This document shows positions 8,512-15,190 of a stretch of DNA of 64,000 nucleotides, piece after piece. Both the position numbers and the translations under genes were made by a program. The DNA is from Sutcliffiella horikoshii. GTDB taxonomy: Bacteria; Bacillota; Bacilli; Bacillales; Bacillaceae_I. The notes beneath the pieces were generated by a model. It saw nothing but the letters and a program-made list of their open reading frames with translations, was not told the origin of the DNA and ran no database searches. How positions within the stretch are numbered: position 1 is the stretch's first letter; each line of letters begins with the position of its first letter. The stretch lies in assembly GCF_002157855.1 (NCBI RefSeq), contig NZ_CP020880.1, positions 2,976,001-3,040,000 on the forward strand, read 5' to 3'.

Positions 8512-10287
8512 CTATTTGCTTGTAAGTTGTAAGAATTCTTCCACATCTTCAAGCGATTTTTTGACAGCCTTTTCCCAGAAGTCTCTTTGTGTCAAATCGA
8601 CACCCAAATGCTTCATCGCTAAATCTTCCACTGTCATGGAAGCTGTATCTTTCAATAGTGCAATGTATTTTTCTTCATAGTTCGTTCCTTCTTCTAATGC
8701 TTGGGAATAGATGCCCAATGAGAACAAATAACCAAACGTATAAGGGAAGTTATAAAAAGGAACTTGTGTGATAAAGAAGTGCATTTTGGATGCCCAGAAT
8801 GTTGGATCGTACTCCCCTAGTGCGTCGCAATATGCTTCTTTTTGCGCTTCTACCATAAGTTCGTTTAACTTTTCCACACTTACCAATCCGTTTTTGCGTT
8901 CGTCATAGAATCTTGTCTCGAAAAGGAAGCGAGCATGGATATTCATGTAGAATGCAACACTGCGTTGAATCTTGTCTTCTAGAAGAGAGATTTTTTCTTG
9001 CTCATCCTTCGCATATTTAACTGCAGCATCCGCTACAATCATTTCTGCAAACGTAGAAGCCGTCTCTGCCACATTACTTGCGTAAAAACGGTTCAAGGTT
9101 GGAACTCCGTGCATAGCATGCTGGTGGAAAGCGTGTCCCAATTCATGAGCCAAAGTGGAGACATTTGAAAGAGTACCAGAGTATGTCATGAAAATTCTTG
9201 ATTGACCGGATACTGGGAAACTTGTGCAGAATCCACCCGGTCGCTTTCCTGCTCTATCTTCTGCCTCAATCCAGCTGTCTTCGAATGATTTCTTTGTAAA
9301 TTCCGTAAGTTCTGGTCCGAACTTGGAGAACTGTTCAATGATGAACTCTGCTCCCTCTTGATAAGAAAGAATCGTCTCTTCTGAAGATAATGGCGCAGAA
9401 ACATCATACATATTCAATTTTTCAAGTCCTAAAAGCTCCGCCTTGCGTTCTAGGTACTTTTTCAATGTGCCTTTATGGTCGGTGATCACTTGCCACATCG
9501 TATCTAGCGTTTCTTGCTTCATTCTATTGTTCTCAAGCGGTTCCTTCAGCACAGAGTCCCAGCCTCTTTGTTCATATACCTGCAGGCGGAATCCTGCAAG
9601 ATGGTTTAAAGCAGCGGCGATTGTTTCTGCTTGGCCTTCCCACGCTTTTTTCCATGCATCCGAAACTTTCTTTCGAACACTGCGATCACCATTTGAAAAA
9701 CGATTATGTGCTTGGCCGACAGATAGCTCTTTCACTTCTCCATTTTCCTCAACCGGTATCTTAATAGTACCAACGATGGAGTTGTATAATTTCCCCCAAG
9801 CATGATAACCGTCTACAGCTAACGAAGTTACCAGCTTCTCTTGTGCTGCAGGTAGTTTGTCACTAGCTCTTCTTCTTCTCTCATTTAAAACATATTCTAA
9901 TGGTTGGAAGACTTCTCTTTGAATAAGACTTGCCCATGTCGCTCCATCCACTTCAACTAGCTTCTCATCCAATGCACCTAGCTGAACCTGTAACTTGGCA
10001 TGCAGTTGTGCTACTTTACCTTGAAGTTGTGAAGCAGCTTTGTCCTTAACGTCCTGTGCAAGCAAACAGCTGATGAATGCGGAAGCTTGTACTACTTTTT
10101 TAACGACATTTTCATAAGAAACCAAGATTTCCTCAAGATTATCAGTCGAGAATGATTCTATTTGCTTTTCAAACTTACCAAGTTCTGTGTGTATTTCTAT
10201 TAAATATGTATGGAATTCTTCTGAATTGCTTCCTCCTTGGAAAAATACATCTAAATCCCAAGTTTCACTGTATGTTTTTGTTGTCAC
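8512..10287 (-). CDS. pepF: M3 family oligoendopeptidase (PepF type)
   Basis: Cytosolic zinc metallopeptidase degrading short peptides. The zinc motif HELGH is at residues 381-385 (encoded at 9133-9147), with a downstream glutamate in the NVAETASTFAEM helix. The N-terminal helical half matches the oligoendopeptidase F layout, and total length (591) is typical. The start is GTG at 10287 behind AAGGGGG. A single gene with its own terminator; substrate range cannot be read from sequence. Confidence 0.9.
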   Translation of the reverse strand: MTTKTYSETWDLDVFFQGGSNSEEFHTYLIEIHTELGKFEKQIESFSTDNLEEILVSYENVVKKVVQASAFISCLLAQDVKDKAASQLQGKVAQLHAKLQVQLGALDEKLVEVDGATWASLIQREVFQPLEYVLNERRRRASDKLPAAQEKLVTSLAVDGYHAWGKLYNSIVGTIKIPVEENGEVKELSVGQAHNRFSNGDRSVRKKVSDAWKKAWEGQAETIAAALNHLAGFRLQVYEQRGWDSVLKEPLENNRMKQETLDTMWQVITDHKGTLKKYLERKAELLGLEKLNMYDVSAPLSSEETILSYQEGAEFIIEQFSKFGPELTEFTKKSFEDSWIEAEDRAGKRPGGFCTSFPVSGQSRIFMTYSGTLSNVSTLAHELGHAFHQHAMHGVPTLNRFYASNVAETASTFAEMIVADAAVKYAKDEQEKISLLEDKIQRSVAFYMNIHARFLFETRFYDERKNGLVSVEKLNELMVEAQKEAYCDALGEYDPTFWASKMHFFITQVPFYNFPYTFGYLFSLGIYSQALEEGTNYEEKYIALLKDTASMTVEDLAMKHLGVDLTQRDFWEKAVKKSLEDVEEFLQLTSK

Positions 10288-10826: not shown

Positions 10827-11540
10827 TTATTGTTTTTTCTTTTCCTTTTCGGCTCGGTAGAATTCGTGGAACATTTTCATGAGGGCACGCTTTTCGATCC
10901 GTGATACATAGCTTCTGGAAATGCCTAGTTCTTTTGCTATTTCACGTTGCGTTTTTTCATCTTTAAGATCAAGTCCAAATCGGCCGACAATGACCTCTCG
11001 TTCCCTTTCATCCAGCACATCAATGTATACCTTTATCTTTTCCAATTCCATATTTAGCTGGATGGTATCGATGACATCCTCAGATTCGGATTTAAGCACA
11101 TCTATTAAACTGATTTCGTTCCCTTCCTTATCTTGACCAATGGGATCGTGTAAAGAAACATCTTTTTTTGTTTTCTTAAGCGCCCTTAAATGCATCAGTA
11201 TTTCATTCTCAATACAACGAGCAGCATAGGTTGCTAGCTTCGTCCCCTTTCCGGAGTGGAAGCTTTCAATCGCTTTTATCAACCCAATCGTCCCGATCGA
11301 AATCAGATCTTCTGAATCTTCTCCTGTATTCTCGAACTTTTTCACAATATGCGCCACAAGTCTCAGGTTATGCTCAATAAGTAGATTCCTTGCCTCTTCA
11401 TTCCCTTCTGCCATCAATTTCAGGTATTTCGCTTCATCCCCTGATGACAATGGTTGTGGAAATGCATTGTTCTTGACGTAAGAAACTAGGAAAACAAGTT
11501 CTTTGATTAAGTATCCTACCGATGCTAATATGCTTGACAC
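10827..11540 (-). CDS. sigK: RNA polymerase sporulation sigma factor SigK (continuous gene)
   Basis: Late mother-cell sigma factor. The pro-sequence [20 protein letters not shown] is followed by [11 protein letters not shown], where pro-sigma-K is processed in related bacilli. Region 2 ([31 protein letters not shown]) and region 4 ([31 protein letters not shown]) are intact. The GTG at 11540 with GGAGG seven bases upstream is chosen; a longer frame opening at 11621 lacks a site. Unlike B. subtilis 168, no prophage-like insertion splits the gene. Confidence 0.95.
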
Positions 11541-11741
11541 ACTTTCACCTCCATAGAAATGCTTAGGCAAGAGCCTAGTAATAATTCTTATGTAGGAAAA
11601 GGCATTCATGTGCAAGTACACTTCAAAATTAATCCAAATAAAAATGTCATATCAACTCGTCATCAAAATGTTATATTTATGTTACAATTCTGACGATTAA
11701 TGGTACAATTTCATTTAGAAGAACAAATGTTCAATAAATAG

Positions 11742-11774
11742 AAAAAAGACCTCCCCAGTAATTAGGGAGATCTT
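11742..11774 (-). terminator. Terminator after the 78-residue protein gene
   Basis: On the minus strand AAGATCTCCC pairs with GGGGAGGTCTT, followed by six T. The stop codon of the 78-residue gene lies at the stem base. Confidence 0.8.
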
Positions 11775-12009
11775 AATACTTAATATAAGGATACTTTTTC
11801 AACTTGGAAGGTATAGTACCTTTGCCGACTTTCACCACACTGTACTCTTGAAACAATGTTTCAAACCACCTAGAAACTTCTGCATATGTTTTATTCTTGT
11901 AATCTACAAGCTGGGCAACACGGTAACGCCTACGCGCCTTTTGCTCACGATCAACAACGATAAACCAAAAGCATGTAAGCTCAAAAGTGTTTGTACTAGC
12001 AGCTGACAT
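11773..12009 (-). CDS. Uncharacterised 78-residue basic protein downstream of the peptide precursors
   Basis: Not recognised. The protein begins MSAASTNTFELTCFWFIVVD, has a basic centre (REQKARRRYRVAQ), a WFETLF segment and a KKYPYIKY tail. It has no signal peptide or clear membrane helix. AAGGAAGG precedes the ATG. No obvious terminator separates it from the tandem-repeat precursor 54 bases upstream, so it may be the last gene of that transcription unit, ending at the terminator 11742-11774. A role as effector or immunity factor of the peptide system is speculative. Confidence 0.65.
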   Translation of the reverse strand: MSAASTNTFELTCFWFIVVDREQKARRRYRVAQLVDYKNKTYAEVSRWFETLFQEYSVVKVGKGTIPSKLKKYPYIKY

Positions 12010-12063
12010 GGTATCAACCTTCCTTTTTATATTAGGATGTATTACTCATTAAATTATTTAGAC

Positions 12064-12327
12064 TCACATATGAATAGGTGGCAGTTCCTTCATGTGAATA
12101 GAAGGTAATTCAGCTGTCAACTCTTTCATATGAATTGGTGGTAGTTCCATGTGAATGGGCGGTAGCTCGCTCATATGAATTGGTGGCAATTCCATATGAA
12201 TCGGTGGTAATTCACTCATATGAATTGGTGGTAGCTCTTTAGCATTAGAATTTTCTGCATGAGATACTGCACTTGCTCCTAGGCTAACTACAGAGAATGC
12301 TAATAAGGAAATAAAATACTTTTTCAT
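12064..12327 (-). CDS. Secreted tandem-repeat peptide precursor, likely multi-unit PapR-like pheromone
   Basis: An 87-residue protein. It opens with a Sec signal peptide (MKKYFISLLAFSVVSLGASA, likely cut after VSHA), has a short linker ENSNAK and then, to the stop codon, seven units of ELPPIHM (one ELPSIHM), separated by nothing, S, K or KELTA. Leucine is coded by CTA, TTA, TTG and CTG in different units, so the repeat is kept at protein level. GAGG lies exactly eight bases before the ATG at 12327. The divergent PlcR-like gene and the E-L-P core resembling PapR (ADLPFEF type) suggest a signalling peptide precursor. Processing and activity are inferred. Confidence 0.85.
   Translation of the reverse strand: MKKYFISLLAFSVVSLGASAVSHAENSNAKELPPIHMSELPPIHMELPPIHMSELPPIHMELPPIHMKELTAELPSIHMKELPPIHM
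12067..12237 (-). repeat. Seven-unit coding tandem repeat
   Basis: Codons for ELP[P/S]IHM repeat seven times with period 21 or 24 bases. The sixth unit is preceded by KELTA and carries Ser for the second Pro. Third-position differences among units exclude a very recent slippage product. Confidence 0.9.
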
Positions 12328-12419
12328 CTTCATTACCTCTTTCTAATTTTATTTAATTAGATTACTAATAAAGTTACTCTTACAAAAGACTGACAATATA
12401 TTAACATCAAAGCCTAAAA

Positions 12420-12542
12420 TTAATGTATTGATGGTAATTCATTTGTTTTTACATCATCCAAAGTGGTTACATGAGAAGATACTGTATTAGCTCCGAATAA
12501 AGTGATAGTAACGACTAAAAATGTGATAATAAATCTTTTCAT
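12420..12542 (-). CDS. Second, single-unit PapR-like peptide precursor
   Basis: A 40-residue secreted peptide gene. A hydrophobic signal sequence (MKRFIITFLVVTITLFGANT) is followed by VSSHVTTLDDVKT and the terminal residues NELPSIH. The last six residues equal one repeat unit of the adjacent 87-residue precursor without its Met, and the size matches PapR precursors. The leader GAAAGAGGT and the eight-base spacing from GAGG to ATG are shared by both genes, suggesting duplication. Two extra in-frame ATG codons precede the chosen start. It lies upstream of the larger precursor on the same strand. Confidence 0.82.
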   Translation of the reverse strand: MKRFIITFLVVTITLFGANTVSSHVTTLDDVKTNELPSIH

Positions 12543-12588
12543 CATCATAACCTCTTTCTATTATTTTTTCTGTTATTATCAAACTATG

Positions 12589-12598
12589 CTTATATAAG
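12589..12598. promoter_or_regulatory. Palindrome upstream of the peptide genes, candidate regulator site
   Basis: CTTATATAAG is a perfect 10-bp palindrome, 41 bases from the 5' edge of the second precursor's first ATG and about 144 bases before the divergent regulator. It lies roughly one -35 distance upstream of GATAAT on the minus strand, which has no good -35 hexamer, as expected for an activated promoter. It does not match the B. cereus PlcR box well. Confidence 0.35.
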
Positions 12599-12741
12599 TA
12601 TTTTACACTATTAAAAAAAAACAGTATTTCCTCAATATTTAAGGTTTACTGTAAGAAAGACACGTTTTCCTTCTGTTTTCTACGTATTTTAATTCAAATT
12701 ATAACTCTAGGAATATTTTATTAGATAGGATGTGATATATT

Positions 12742-13629
12742 GTGGATTTTTCTTTAATCGGAAAAGAGATAAAAATCCTACGATCTGCACTAAACTTATC
12801 ACAGGCGGAGCTGAGTGAAGGGATTTGTACACAATCACAAATCAGTAAAATTGAAAAAGGAGAGGTATTTCCTCTTGCTAACACTTTATATTATATAGCA
12901 GAAAGACTAGGTGTGGATATAAATTATTTTTATGACTTAGCAACTAACCCCCAACTATCCTATATTGAAGAGGTCTTTACACAAGTAAGAGAGTTGTTAC
13001 ATCGTAATGAGTACGAGGAAGTTTTTAATATTGTTGAAAATGAAAAGAAAAATCCTTTGTTTATAAATAATCGCAAGAATAAGCAATTTCTCCTATGGAC
13101 TGAAGGTATATGCATCTACCATCTTAAACGAAATAAACGAGATGCCTTAAAACTTTTACAAACTGCTCTTGAATTAACTAAAATGACCTCTAAACTGATG
13201 GGAGAAAGAGAAATAGAAATACTTAATAGCATTGCTATTATTCATTTTGAAACTAAAGCATATGAAGATGCTTTAGAAATTTACAACTATGCAATAAAAA
13301 ATTACATGAAAATCCCATATCATCAGGACCCCACTATTAAGATAAAAATTTTGTATAACAAATCTAAAACTCTCACCAGGTTAAATATGTTAGAAGAATC
13401 TACTCAAGCATGTAAAGAAGCAATAAAGTGGTGTGTTAAACATAATAGTATGTTTGCTCTTGGCAGCCTTTACTATCATATAGGCTACAATTACAGCCTA
13501 TTGCACAGTCACGACATAGCCATCGAATATTACAATAAATCCATTCAAATCTTCATGATTCAAGAGAACAAGGTTTTCGTTAAGCATATTAAAGAAAAAA
13601 TAGATGAACTTTCTGTCTTACTTGACTAA
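12742..13629 (+). CDS. PlcR-type HTH-TPR quorum-sensing regulator
   Basis: A 295-residue cytosolic transcription factor of the RRNPP group. An N-terminal XRE helix-turn-helix (about 6-60: IGKEIKILRSALNLSQAELS, QSQISKIEKGEVFP) is followed by helical TPR-like repeats that would bind an imported peptide. Alignment from memory with B. cereus PlcR shows shared stretches such as ELSE-IC-QS, and NSM-ALG-LYY-G in the last repeats; length is close to PlcR (285). The GTG start has AGGATGTGA six bases upstream. It is divergent from two peptide precursor genes, the classic layout for a receptor-pheromone pair. Target genes are unknown. Confidence 0.88.
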   Translation: MDFSLIGKEIKILRSALNLSQAELSEGICTQSQISKIEKGEVFPLANTLYYIAERLGVDINYFYDLATNPQLSYIEEVFTQVRELLHRNEYEEVFNIVENEKKNPLFINNRKNKQFLLWTEGICIYHLKRNKRDALKLLQTALELTKMTSKLMGEREIEILNSIAIIHFETKAYEDALEIYNYAIKNYMKIPYHQDPTIKIKILYNKSKTLTRLNMLEESTQACKEAIKWCVKHNSMFALGSLYYHIGYNYSLLHSHDIAIEYYNKSIQIFMIQENKVFVKHIKEKIDELSVLLD

Positions 13630-13631
13630 CA

Positions 13632-13661
13632 AAAAAACTAGGCCTCGCAGCCTAGTTTTTT
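13632..13661. terminator. Bidirectional terminator between the regulator and opuFB
   Basis: AAAAAACTAGGC (13632-13643) pairs perfectly with GCCTAGTTTTTT (13650-13661). It serves both converging genes. Confidence 0.9.
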
Positions 13662-13666
13662 CGTGT

Positions 13667-15190
13667 CTATTCCCCCAACAACCCTTTCTTCTCCAAAAAG
13701 TCCTTGGCCACTTCATATGTGGTCTTTCCTTCAACGGTTACCTGATAGTTCATGTCACGCATTTCGTCATCATTTATTAGGTTTTCCAATTGATTTAGGA
13801 TTTCTTCTAGTTCTGGATGCTCATCAAGGGTTTCTTTTCTGAGCAATGCCGCTCCTTGATATGGAGGGAAAAGGTTTTTGTCATCTTCCAACACTCGTAA
13901 ATCAAATTGTTTGATTTCTGCATCTGTGGAGTAGGCGTCCACTAGGTTTACATCTCCATTTTCCACTGCCTGATAGCGCAGTTTGGCCTGCATGGTAGTC
14001 AGGTTAGGGAACGTGATGCCGTACACTTCTTGAATGCCTAGATATCCGTCTTGACGATCGGAGAACTCTAGGGTGAATCCTGCCTTTATTTCATTTTTGG
14101 CACCATTCAGATCAGATATCGTATTAATTTCATTTTGTTCAGCAAAATCTTCCGGGATTGCCAGGGCATATGTATTGTTAAAGCCCATAGGCTGTAGGAA
14201 CACAAGCTCATCCTGTTCCATCAGGCCTTTTTTCGCCTGTTCAAATACTTCCTCATCATCAATGCTGACAGGTTCTTCTTCCAGTAAGGTGACAATGGCA
14301 GTTCCCGAATACTCCGGATAGATGTCGATGTCTTTATTTTTCAGGGCTCGGTACACAAAGCTCGTGTTTCCAAGCGATGGACGTAATTCAACTTTCAAAT
14401 CCGTTTCTTCTTCGATCAAGAGTTTATACATGTTAATGATAATGTCAGGCTCTGCACCTATTTTCCCACTGATAACAAGATCCGCTTCTGTTGCTTTCAT
14501 CACCGCAAAAGGAGATAGGAAAAGAAGAACCACAACAATCCCAATGATAAGGGCTTTTTTGCCAGATCCTTTTCTAGCTGCCGTTTCAATCATACGTAAA
14601 ATGATATCAAATAAAATGGCAAGAAGTGCTGCAGGAATTGCTCCTAGCAAAATTAATGCATTGTCGTTTCGGTCAATCCCTAGAAGAATGAGGCTACCTA
14701 ATCCTCCTGCTCCAATTAAAGCCACAATGGTTGCGGTACCGATAATCAATACCATCGCTGTTCTTATACCAGCCATGATAACCGGCAACGCAAGCGGGAG
14801 TTCCACTCGAAATAATCTTTTCATCGAAGTCATTCCCATTGCTTTCGCCGCTTCACGCAAGGATGGATCTACTTCTTTTATTCCTGTATAGGTATTTCTT
14901 AATATTGGAAGTAAAGCATAAAGAAATAGTGCAATGACAGCCGGAACGAATCCAATTCCTACAAGAGGAATTAACAGTCCAAGTAATGCAAGGGATGGAA
15001 TGGTCTGCATGACAGCCGTTATTCCAATTATCGGCTCAGCAATTCGTTCTTTTCTCGTTAATAGCACGCCAAGTGGAACAGATATAAAGACTGCTATCGC
15101 CAGTGCAATGACCGAGATTTGTATATGTTCTAATAGCGCTGTCCAAAGTTGATCGCCTCGGGCTGCATATAGTTCTTGAAGGAATGTCAT
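13667..15190 (-). CDS. opuFB: Compatible-solute ABC transporter, permease fused to substrate-binding domain (OpuFB type)
   Basis: A 507-residue membrane protein. The first ~215 residues are a six-helix betaine/choline-type permease with the EAA-like loop EAAKAMGMTSMKRLFRVELP. The remainder, after one more membrane segment, is an extracytoplasmic OpuCC/ProX-like binding domain (YPEYSGTA, VNLVDAYSTDAE). This permease-binding fusion matches OpuF-type osmoprotectant importers. The ATG overlaps the ATPase stop codon by one base. Substrate (glycine betaine or relatives) is inferred from family. Confidence 0.85.
   Translation of the reverse strand: MTFLQELYAARGDQLWTALLEHIQISVIALAIAVFISVPLGVLLTRKERIAEPIIGITAVMQTIPSLALLGLLIPLVGIGFVPAVIALFLYALLPILRNTYTGIKEVDPSLREAAKAMGMTSMKRLFRVELPLALPVIMAGIRTAMVLIIGTATIVALIGAGGLGSLILLGIDRNDNALILLGAIPAALLAILFDIILRMIETAARKGSGKKALIIGIVVVLLFLSPFAVMKATEADLVISGKIGAEPDIIINMYKLLIEEETDLKVELRPSLGNTSFVYRALKNKDIDIYPEYSGTAIVTLLEEEPVSIDDEEVFEQAKKGLMEQDELVFLQPMGFNNTYALAIPEDFAEQNEINTISDLNGAKNEIKAGFTLEFSDRQDGYLGIQEVYGITFPNLTTMQAKLRYQAVENGDVNLVDAYSTDAEIKQFDLRVLEDDKNLFPPYQGAALLRKETLDEHPELEEILNQLENLINDDEMRDMNYQVTVEGKTTYEVAKDFLEKKGLLGE

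Follow-up and report, generated by a model that had tools for sequence, protein, structure and literature searches.

Why a pheromone should be amplified inside its own precursor is a general question in bacteria, and a small gene cassette of Sutcliffiella horikoshii bears on it. Does a secreted protein with seven copies of a short peptide provide the signal for the PlcR-like receptor encoded beside it? The window, by which we mean the whole stretch of DNA that was analysed (64,000 nucleotides), covers positions 2976001-3040000 of contig 1 of a 4.3 Mb genome. The initial annotation had described a quorum-sensing pair in this window, consisting of a 295-residue HTH-TPR regulator and a divergent, secreted repeat protein. 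The features that the argument needs are:

12742-13629, plus strand: PlcR-like HTH and TPR receptor (the regulator), 295 aa, GTG start, with Pfam, PDB sequence and fold matches
12700-12715, unstranded: 16-bp imperfect dyad TATAACTCTAGGAATA, 5' of the regulator, candidate operator
12586-12601, unstranded: palindrome ATGCTTATATAAGTAT, 5' of the single-copy precursor, weaker candidate operator, called by eye and from an aligned block
12420-12548, minus strand: single-copy PapR-like precursor of 42 aa, or 40 aa if read from the third ATG, C-terminus NELPSIH
12064-12333, minus strand: seven-unit PapR-like precursor of 89 aa, or 87 aa if translation begins at the second ATG (12327)
12067-12237, minus strand: overall span of the seven ELP[P/S]IHM units, from DNA pattern positions and codons
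12067-12087, 12091-12111 (the ELPSIHM unit), 12127-12147, 12148-12168, 12172-12192, 12193-12213 and 12217-12237, minus strand: the single units
11773-12009, minus strand: gene of a conserved 78-aa protein without family match, downstream of the precursors
11746-11774, minus strand: terminator-like stem-loop, 3' of the 78-aa gene
13632-13661, plus strand: terminator-like stem-loop, 3' of the regulator

The regulator is PlcR-like, as judged from its sequence and its predicted fold. It combines an N-terminal HTH with a C-terminal TPR peptide-binding domain of PlcR type, as in the PlcR subfamily of RRNPP regulators, and matches the Pfam families RNPP_C (PF18768, E 3.4e-20), HTH_19 and TPR_2, all over the cut-off. 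Among PDB structures, PlcR (2qfc) is the sole full-length sequence match (E 2.3e-23). For the predicted model, made from 47 sequences (mean pLDDT 90.1, pTM 0.72), the best PDB match found by Foldseek was the PlcR-PapR7-DNA structure 3u3w (E 2.3e-12, TM 0.74 by query length). Ranks one to five were all PlcR chains, and the identity to PlcR in the structural alignment was 28%. N206 of the receptor aligns with N201 of PlcR, and an Asn is present there in 40 of the 47 aligned sequences and absent in seven. A passage of a Rap structure paper describes one Asn as strictly conserved in RNPP proteins, and N206 is taken to be this family-conserved asparagine of the TPR groove. Searching named genomes with the regulator brought up 11 loci. 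Seven of them, at 81-83% identity, were closest and belonged to Sutcliffiella (Bacillus) horikoshii strains and two further Bacillus; Bacillus tianshenii, Bacillus sp. RO2 and Rossellomorea aquimaris came next.

Much of the initial description was borne out. The regulator (12742-13629, plus strand) does diverge from a secreted repeat protein (12064-12333, minus strand), and the seven units, six ELPPIHM and one ELPSIHM, are confirmed by the codons and were called as tandem repeats by TRF too. The proposed size of 87 residues is acceptable, as the second ATG has the better Shine-Dalgarno spacing by eye. A degenerate 21-base pattern for ELP[P/S]IHM occurred 7, 6 and 8 times in three of the 16 genus genomes, always within this cassette, and not at all in the other 13; it lies beyond chance, since the reversed control gave zero in all 16.

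The initial annotation had missed a second precursor gene, closer to the receptor. This reading frame (12420-12548) sits between the repeat gene and the regulator, so that the repeat gene is not the nearest divergent partner, and its product has a signal-like hydrophobic start; secretion signals were assigned by visual inspection and a simple script rule, without SignalP. With its terminal NELPSIH, it is the small, adjacent, secreted precursor that a PlcR-subfamily receptor usually has. Neither precursor, nor the 78-aa protein, had an above-cut-off match in Pfam or NCBIfam; the single-copy precursor matched the PhrK family below threshold, with E 0.018 and 15.3 bits where the cut-off is 35.

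Comparison within the genus bears on the two candidate partners. A full-length regulator at no less than 61% identity was found in 15 of the 16 genomes, our own included, the exception being an 80% complete one (G011). In all 15, a divergent single-copy precursor gene lies about 200 bases upstream of the regulator. Its endings are ELPSIH in three genomes, ELPPLY or ELPPLH in eight, ELPTRH in two and ELPYQH in two. The multi-copy gene is present in only three of the 15 (G000, G001 and G015), where it is inserted between the single-copy gene and the 78-aa gene; elsewhere the 78-aa gene directly follows the single-copy gene. These three genomes hold the window receptor and the two receptors nearest to it (97 and 93%), and the three form a supported clade in the receptor tree. 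The repeat gene is thus rejected as the sole partner of the receptor, and by sequence the single-copy gene is the ordinary, conserved, PapR-like one. Of the proposed pair, a PlcR-like receptor beside a secreted precursor stands, whereas the seven-unit protein is neither its sole nor its standard precursor. Likewise, the genome search that had been suggested for regulator and motif found 12 of 15 homologous regulators without the repeat gene, but their partners are not unrelated. The ELP core of the repeat units is common to the single-copy precursors of related loci.

The two precursor genes and the 78-aa gene may be transcribed as a single unit. A scan of 11650-13750, where 1.0 terminator-like sites were expected, found four, of which one follows the 78-aa gene and none separates the two precursor genes, which suggests a shared message. 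A promoter scan of the locus did no better than chance, with 9 hits against 9.7 expected from shuffled sequence. The 78-aa protein is at least 84.6% identical across the 15 regulator-bearing genus genomes, ends in PYI[KQ]Y and was found at 17 of 124 loci in the order (E below 1e-20); its gene lies downstream of the precursor genes, and any role of it in signalling would be putative. Next to the module lies a sporulation sigma-factor-like gene (10827-11621, minus strand), which was named by eye and is apparently uninterrupted. A few kb away, at 8512-10287 of the window (minus strand), is an oligoendopeptidase F-like reading frame, also named by eye. PepF-type enzymes degrade signalling peptides in B. 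subtilis.

The candidate operator TATAACTCTAGGAATA is aligned at the equivalent place across the genus. The pattern TATAACTNTAGGAATA occurs once per genome, at the regulator, in 13 of the 16 genus genomes; if one mismatch is allowed, two further genomes have it there too. With a single exact site per genome, a broad regulon by the exact box is rejected. The box was also rejected as a whole-genome count signal, since one-mismatch matches over the 16 genomes did not exceed the control (32 against 48). Across genera, the conserved dyad upstream of the receptor is mostly TATAACTNTAGG[AC]ATA, and 49 of 83 receptor rows have TATAA[CT]TNTA[GA]G[AC]ATA in the 120 bases before the receptor. Counted over all 83 rows, a precursor is present in 47 of the 49 rows with the box and in 4 of the 34 without it. 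A link independent of ancestry was not found, with two independent pairs on supported branches and five on all branches (sign test p 1), and the association is largely one of shared ancestry.

The dyad shares its length and its TAT...ATA ends with the PlcR box of B. cereus, but the inner letters of TATGNAN4TNCATA do not fit, and an exact B. cereus box is rejected. That box characterises the targets of PlcR in B. cereus and not the whole receptor family; PlcRa, too, is reported to lack it. The dyad starts with TATAAC, a hexamer that could be the receptor's own -10, which would suggest autoregulation through an overlapping operator.

A near-identical site, TATTACTNTAGGAATA, lies upstream of yqgU-yqgV (YqgU and Thiamine_BP families). 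Of the 15 genus genomes, nine have it exactly and 13 with no more than two changes, and it was not found in the other two; in 11 it lies 91 bases before the start. In the species of the window it reads TATTCCTGTAAGAATA. By eye, it stands just 5' of a TTGTAT-17-CATAAT promoter. The site was seen at loci L171, L172, L174-L180 and L186-L198, in the window genome at about 2868300 (G000:C1), and where one contig carries both it is about 105-135 kb from the receptor. In windows from 12 of 15 loci, identity in the box was 0.90 against 0.29-0.41 upstream of it, a value inflated by aligning on the box pattern. The operon is therefore a lead, as a candidate receptor target. The open-licence literature yielded nothing on YqgU with Bacillus.

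Taken together, we favour, as the probable explanation, a PlcR/PapR-type (RRNPP) quorum-sensing module in which papR was duplicated and amplified into a seven-unit paralogue. When the two precursors are aligned in their signal parts, the score beats all 500 shuffles in each of two species, and although a make-up common to signal peptides may raise this score, the repeat gene is probably a paralogue of the single-copy gene. Both precursors would be exported by Sec. One cut would free the C-terminal peptide of the single-copy precursor, and each unit of the repeat precursor, presumably the mature peptide itself, would need cuts on both sides. The peptides would re-enter through an oligopeptide permease and bind in the TPR groove of the receptor, and binding would change its hold on the 16-bp dyad, with its own promoter among the sites. 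Candidate genes for import and proteolysis are present in the genome, with eight SBP_bac_5 matches and one Peptidase_M4 match. The repeat gene could raise the signal per transcript, or provide the variant ELPPIH(M) alongside ELPSIH.

Details of the units speak against a simple gain model. In the window gene, M follows all seven units and is also the last residue of the protein, so that, without trimming, this protein could not give a peptide with a free His at its C-terminus like the single-copy one. A tentative reading within the same module is that the repeat gene encodes a second dialect, in which ELPPIHM acts unlike NELPSIH (as a weaker agonist, an antagonist or the signal of another receptor) and the duplication is an intermediate of divergence. 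The three multi-copy genes have 7, 7 and 9 units, of which 21 of 23 are followed by M (7/7, 6/7 and 8/9), and both exceptions are ELPSIH copies. Moreover, ELPPIH is closer than ELPSIH to the ELPPL[YH] of other species. A passage of PMC6568020 reports that changes at several positions of PapR7 convert PapR from an activator into an inhibitor of PlcR, and PMC9765709 already describes dissimilar copies within RRNPPA propeptides. Yet each of the three genes has ELPSIH as its last unit but one, with M, Q or K after it, while the remaining units are ELPPIHM. This one retained copy matches the ending of the single-copy precursor and fits one shared signal.

Signal and receptor differ together between two clades of the genus. 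At 22 receptor positions, 87, 89 and 91 included, species with ELP[PS]IH (three) and with ELPPL[YH] (eight) have no residue in common, which could be explained by ordinary divergence too. A wider and more doubtful reading joins several of these elements. One receptor would hear two paralogous precursors of different dialect and dosage (NELPSIH against six ELPPIHM and one ELPSIHM), as an intermediate of a pherotype change, with the amplified gene buffering or opposing the single-copy signal and the receptor also controlling the distant yqgU-yqgV through the common dyad.

It is improbable that the repeat gene arose by recent, passive tandem expansion and has no effect. Such an expansion would suit a gene that is present in three of 15 regulator-bearing genomes and varies in copy number. 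In contrast, the units differ strongly at synonymous sites and keep their peptide nearly constant. Between units of the same gene, pS is 0.761, 0.889 and 0.716 and pN 0.021, 0.021 and 0.016 in the three genes (pN/pS 0.028, 0.023 and 0.022), and the repeat part compared between two species gives pS 0.43 and pN 0.014. This argues for purifying selection rather than fresh polymerase slippage and, by these codon comparisons, the unit peptide is held by strong purifying selection. Even less probable is a secreted metal-binding or structural protein with no signalling tie, to which the seven HM pairs and the signal-like start would be suited, because the signal part is similar to the one in the single-copy precursor and other multi-copy precursors in the same divergent place have the ELP core without HM.

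The favoured module, a duplicated and amplified papR beside its receptor, has relatives across the order. Regulator matches with E 1e-30 or better were found in 152 of 348 genomes; the better-scoring part of these matches and of those in the genus, 148 regulator matches at 124 loci, was sampled, and 83 rows with at least 42% identity were kept. One row repeats another (L133 and L084), leaving 82 distinct, with near-copies among them (L085, L090, L092 and L093). Precursors were sought by a script that required a signal-like start, bases resembling a Shine-Dalgarno sequence, an xLP core and a position 150-470 bases upstream, and odd precursors may escape it; L077, dropped by the script's 160-aa limit, was scored as multi-copy by hand. 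A divergent precursor with an xLP core was found at 50 of the 82 distinct loci, single-copy at 31 and multi-copy at 19. The latter have two units at eight loci, four at two, five at three, six at one, seven at two, eight at one and nine at two, with ELPSVY, ELPGVH, AELPPIYKP or ELPPML among the other unit types. On a quick maximum-likelihood receptor tree, the single or multi label needs seven changes. Among the kept rows, two precursor genes occur only at L002-L004, which are the three species with the repeat gene. Judged by these gene neighbourhoods, the order holds a family of divergent receptor and xLP-precursor pairs, usually with the conserved 16-bp dyad.

Some loci differ from this picture. 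L077, L078 and L079 encode 9, 8 and 6 AELPPIY units with KPSSLGLV-type spacers at the same divergent position, and the common box was not found upstream of their receptors. At L024 (2556-2915; 41% identity), a divergent precursor has five AIPFPPRM units and falls outside the ELP code. Between three and five PlcR-like receptor genes stand side by side in arrays at L103, L114, L148 and L149, where the script found neither an xLP precursor nor the box; it is possible that these receptors listen to foreign signals.

Related species have the receptor, the single-copy precursor and the dyad in common and differ in the presence of the amplified gene, so effects on gain, threshold and dialect could be separated by removal of one gene. 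The doubled layout could set the signal strength or carry two dialects. In addition, the 50 receptor and peptide pairs, which range from one to nine units and change seven times between single-copy and multi-copy along the quick tree, form a set for the study of receptor-peptide co-evolution.

How does this module compare with known systems? Fungal alpha-factor precursors, to which the initial annotation likened the repeat protein, contain tandem units with dibasic (KR) spacers between them. The likeness holds for the tandem units in one secreted precursor and not for the spacers, as the ELPxIH cores of the window gene are separated by M, MS, MK or MKELTA instead of a dibasic KR/EA-type spacer. 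The fungal systems are not known to be related to the window module in protein or receptor class.

The closest counterpart is PlcR-PapR of the B. cereus group, which likewise has an HTH and TPR receptor, a short secreted precursor that carries an xLP peptide at its C-terminus and a 16-bp operator with TAT...ATA ends. Published passages give PapR7 as ADLPFEF and TATGNAN4TNCATA as the PlcR operator consensus. The window module differs in its divergent precursors, two in number, in a receptor of only 28% identity and in the letters of its dyad. PlcRa-PapRa of B. cereus shares a PlcR paralogue, an upstream precursor gene and a long precursor, described in PMC3519770 as 93 aa with an internal proposed heptapeptide. 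It has a single precursor gene and a single proposed unit, whereas the window locus has two genes and seven units.

Several identical or near-identical pheromone copies per secreted propeptide, as in the seven counted units of the window gene, are described in passages of PMC9765709 and PMC11343458 for RRNPPA systems. The former reports several copies, up to six, in propeptides of AimR, NprR, Rap and PlcR, with three multi-copy cases among 15 long PlcR propeptides, and the latter up to eight for Phr. For two Rap-Phr systems, PMC11343458 also describes extracellular proteases that free several active pheromones from tandem propeptides. Since multi-copy RRNPP precursors, the PlcR subfamily included, are already published, the idea of an amplified precursor is not new in kind. 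What sets the window locus apart is that its multi-copy gene stands beside a separate single-copy gene, probably of the same receptor.

Four unit strings were not found in the open-licence papers searched, and none of the titles and abstracts listed there describes a two-precursor PlcR-type system; passages of PMC10075063 and PMC12700828 that were considered hold nothing on such a layout. In its relevant passage, PMC9765709 mentions more than one propeptide gene next to a receptor only for Rap. Compared with these neighbouring Rap precursor genes, a multi-copy and a single-copy gene at one PlcR-type receptor may be new, and may also be listed elsewhere. The locus thereby adds a PlcR-type case to a layout that this one survey reports for Rap only.
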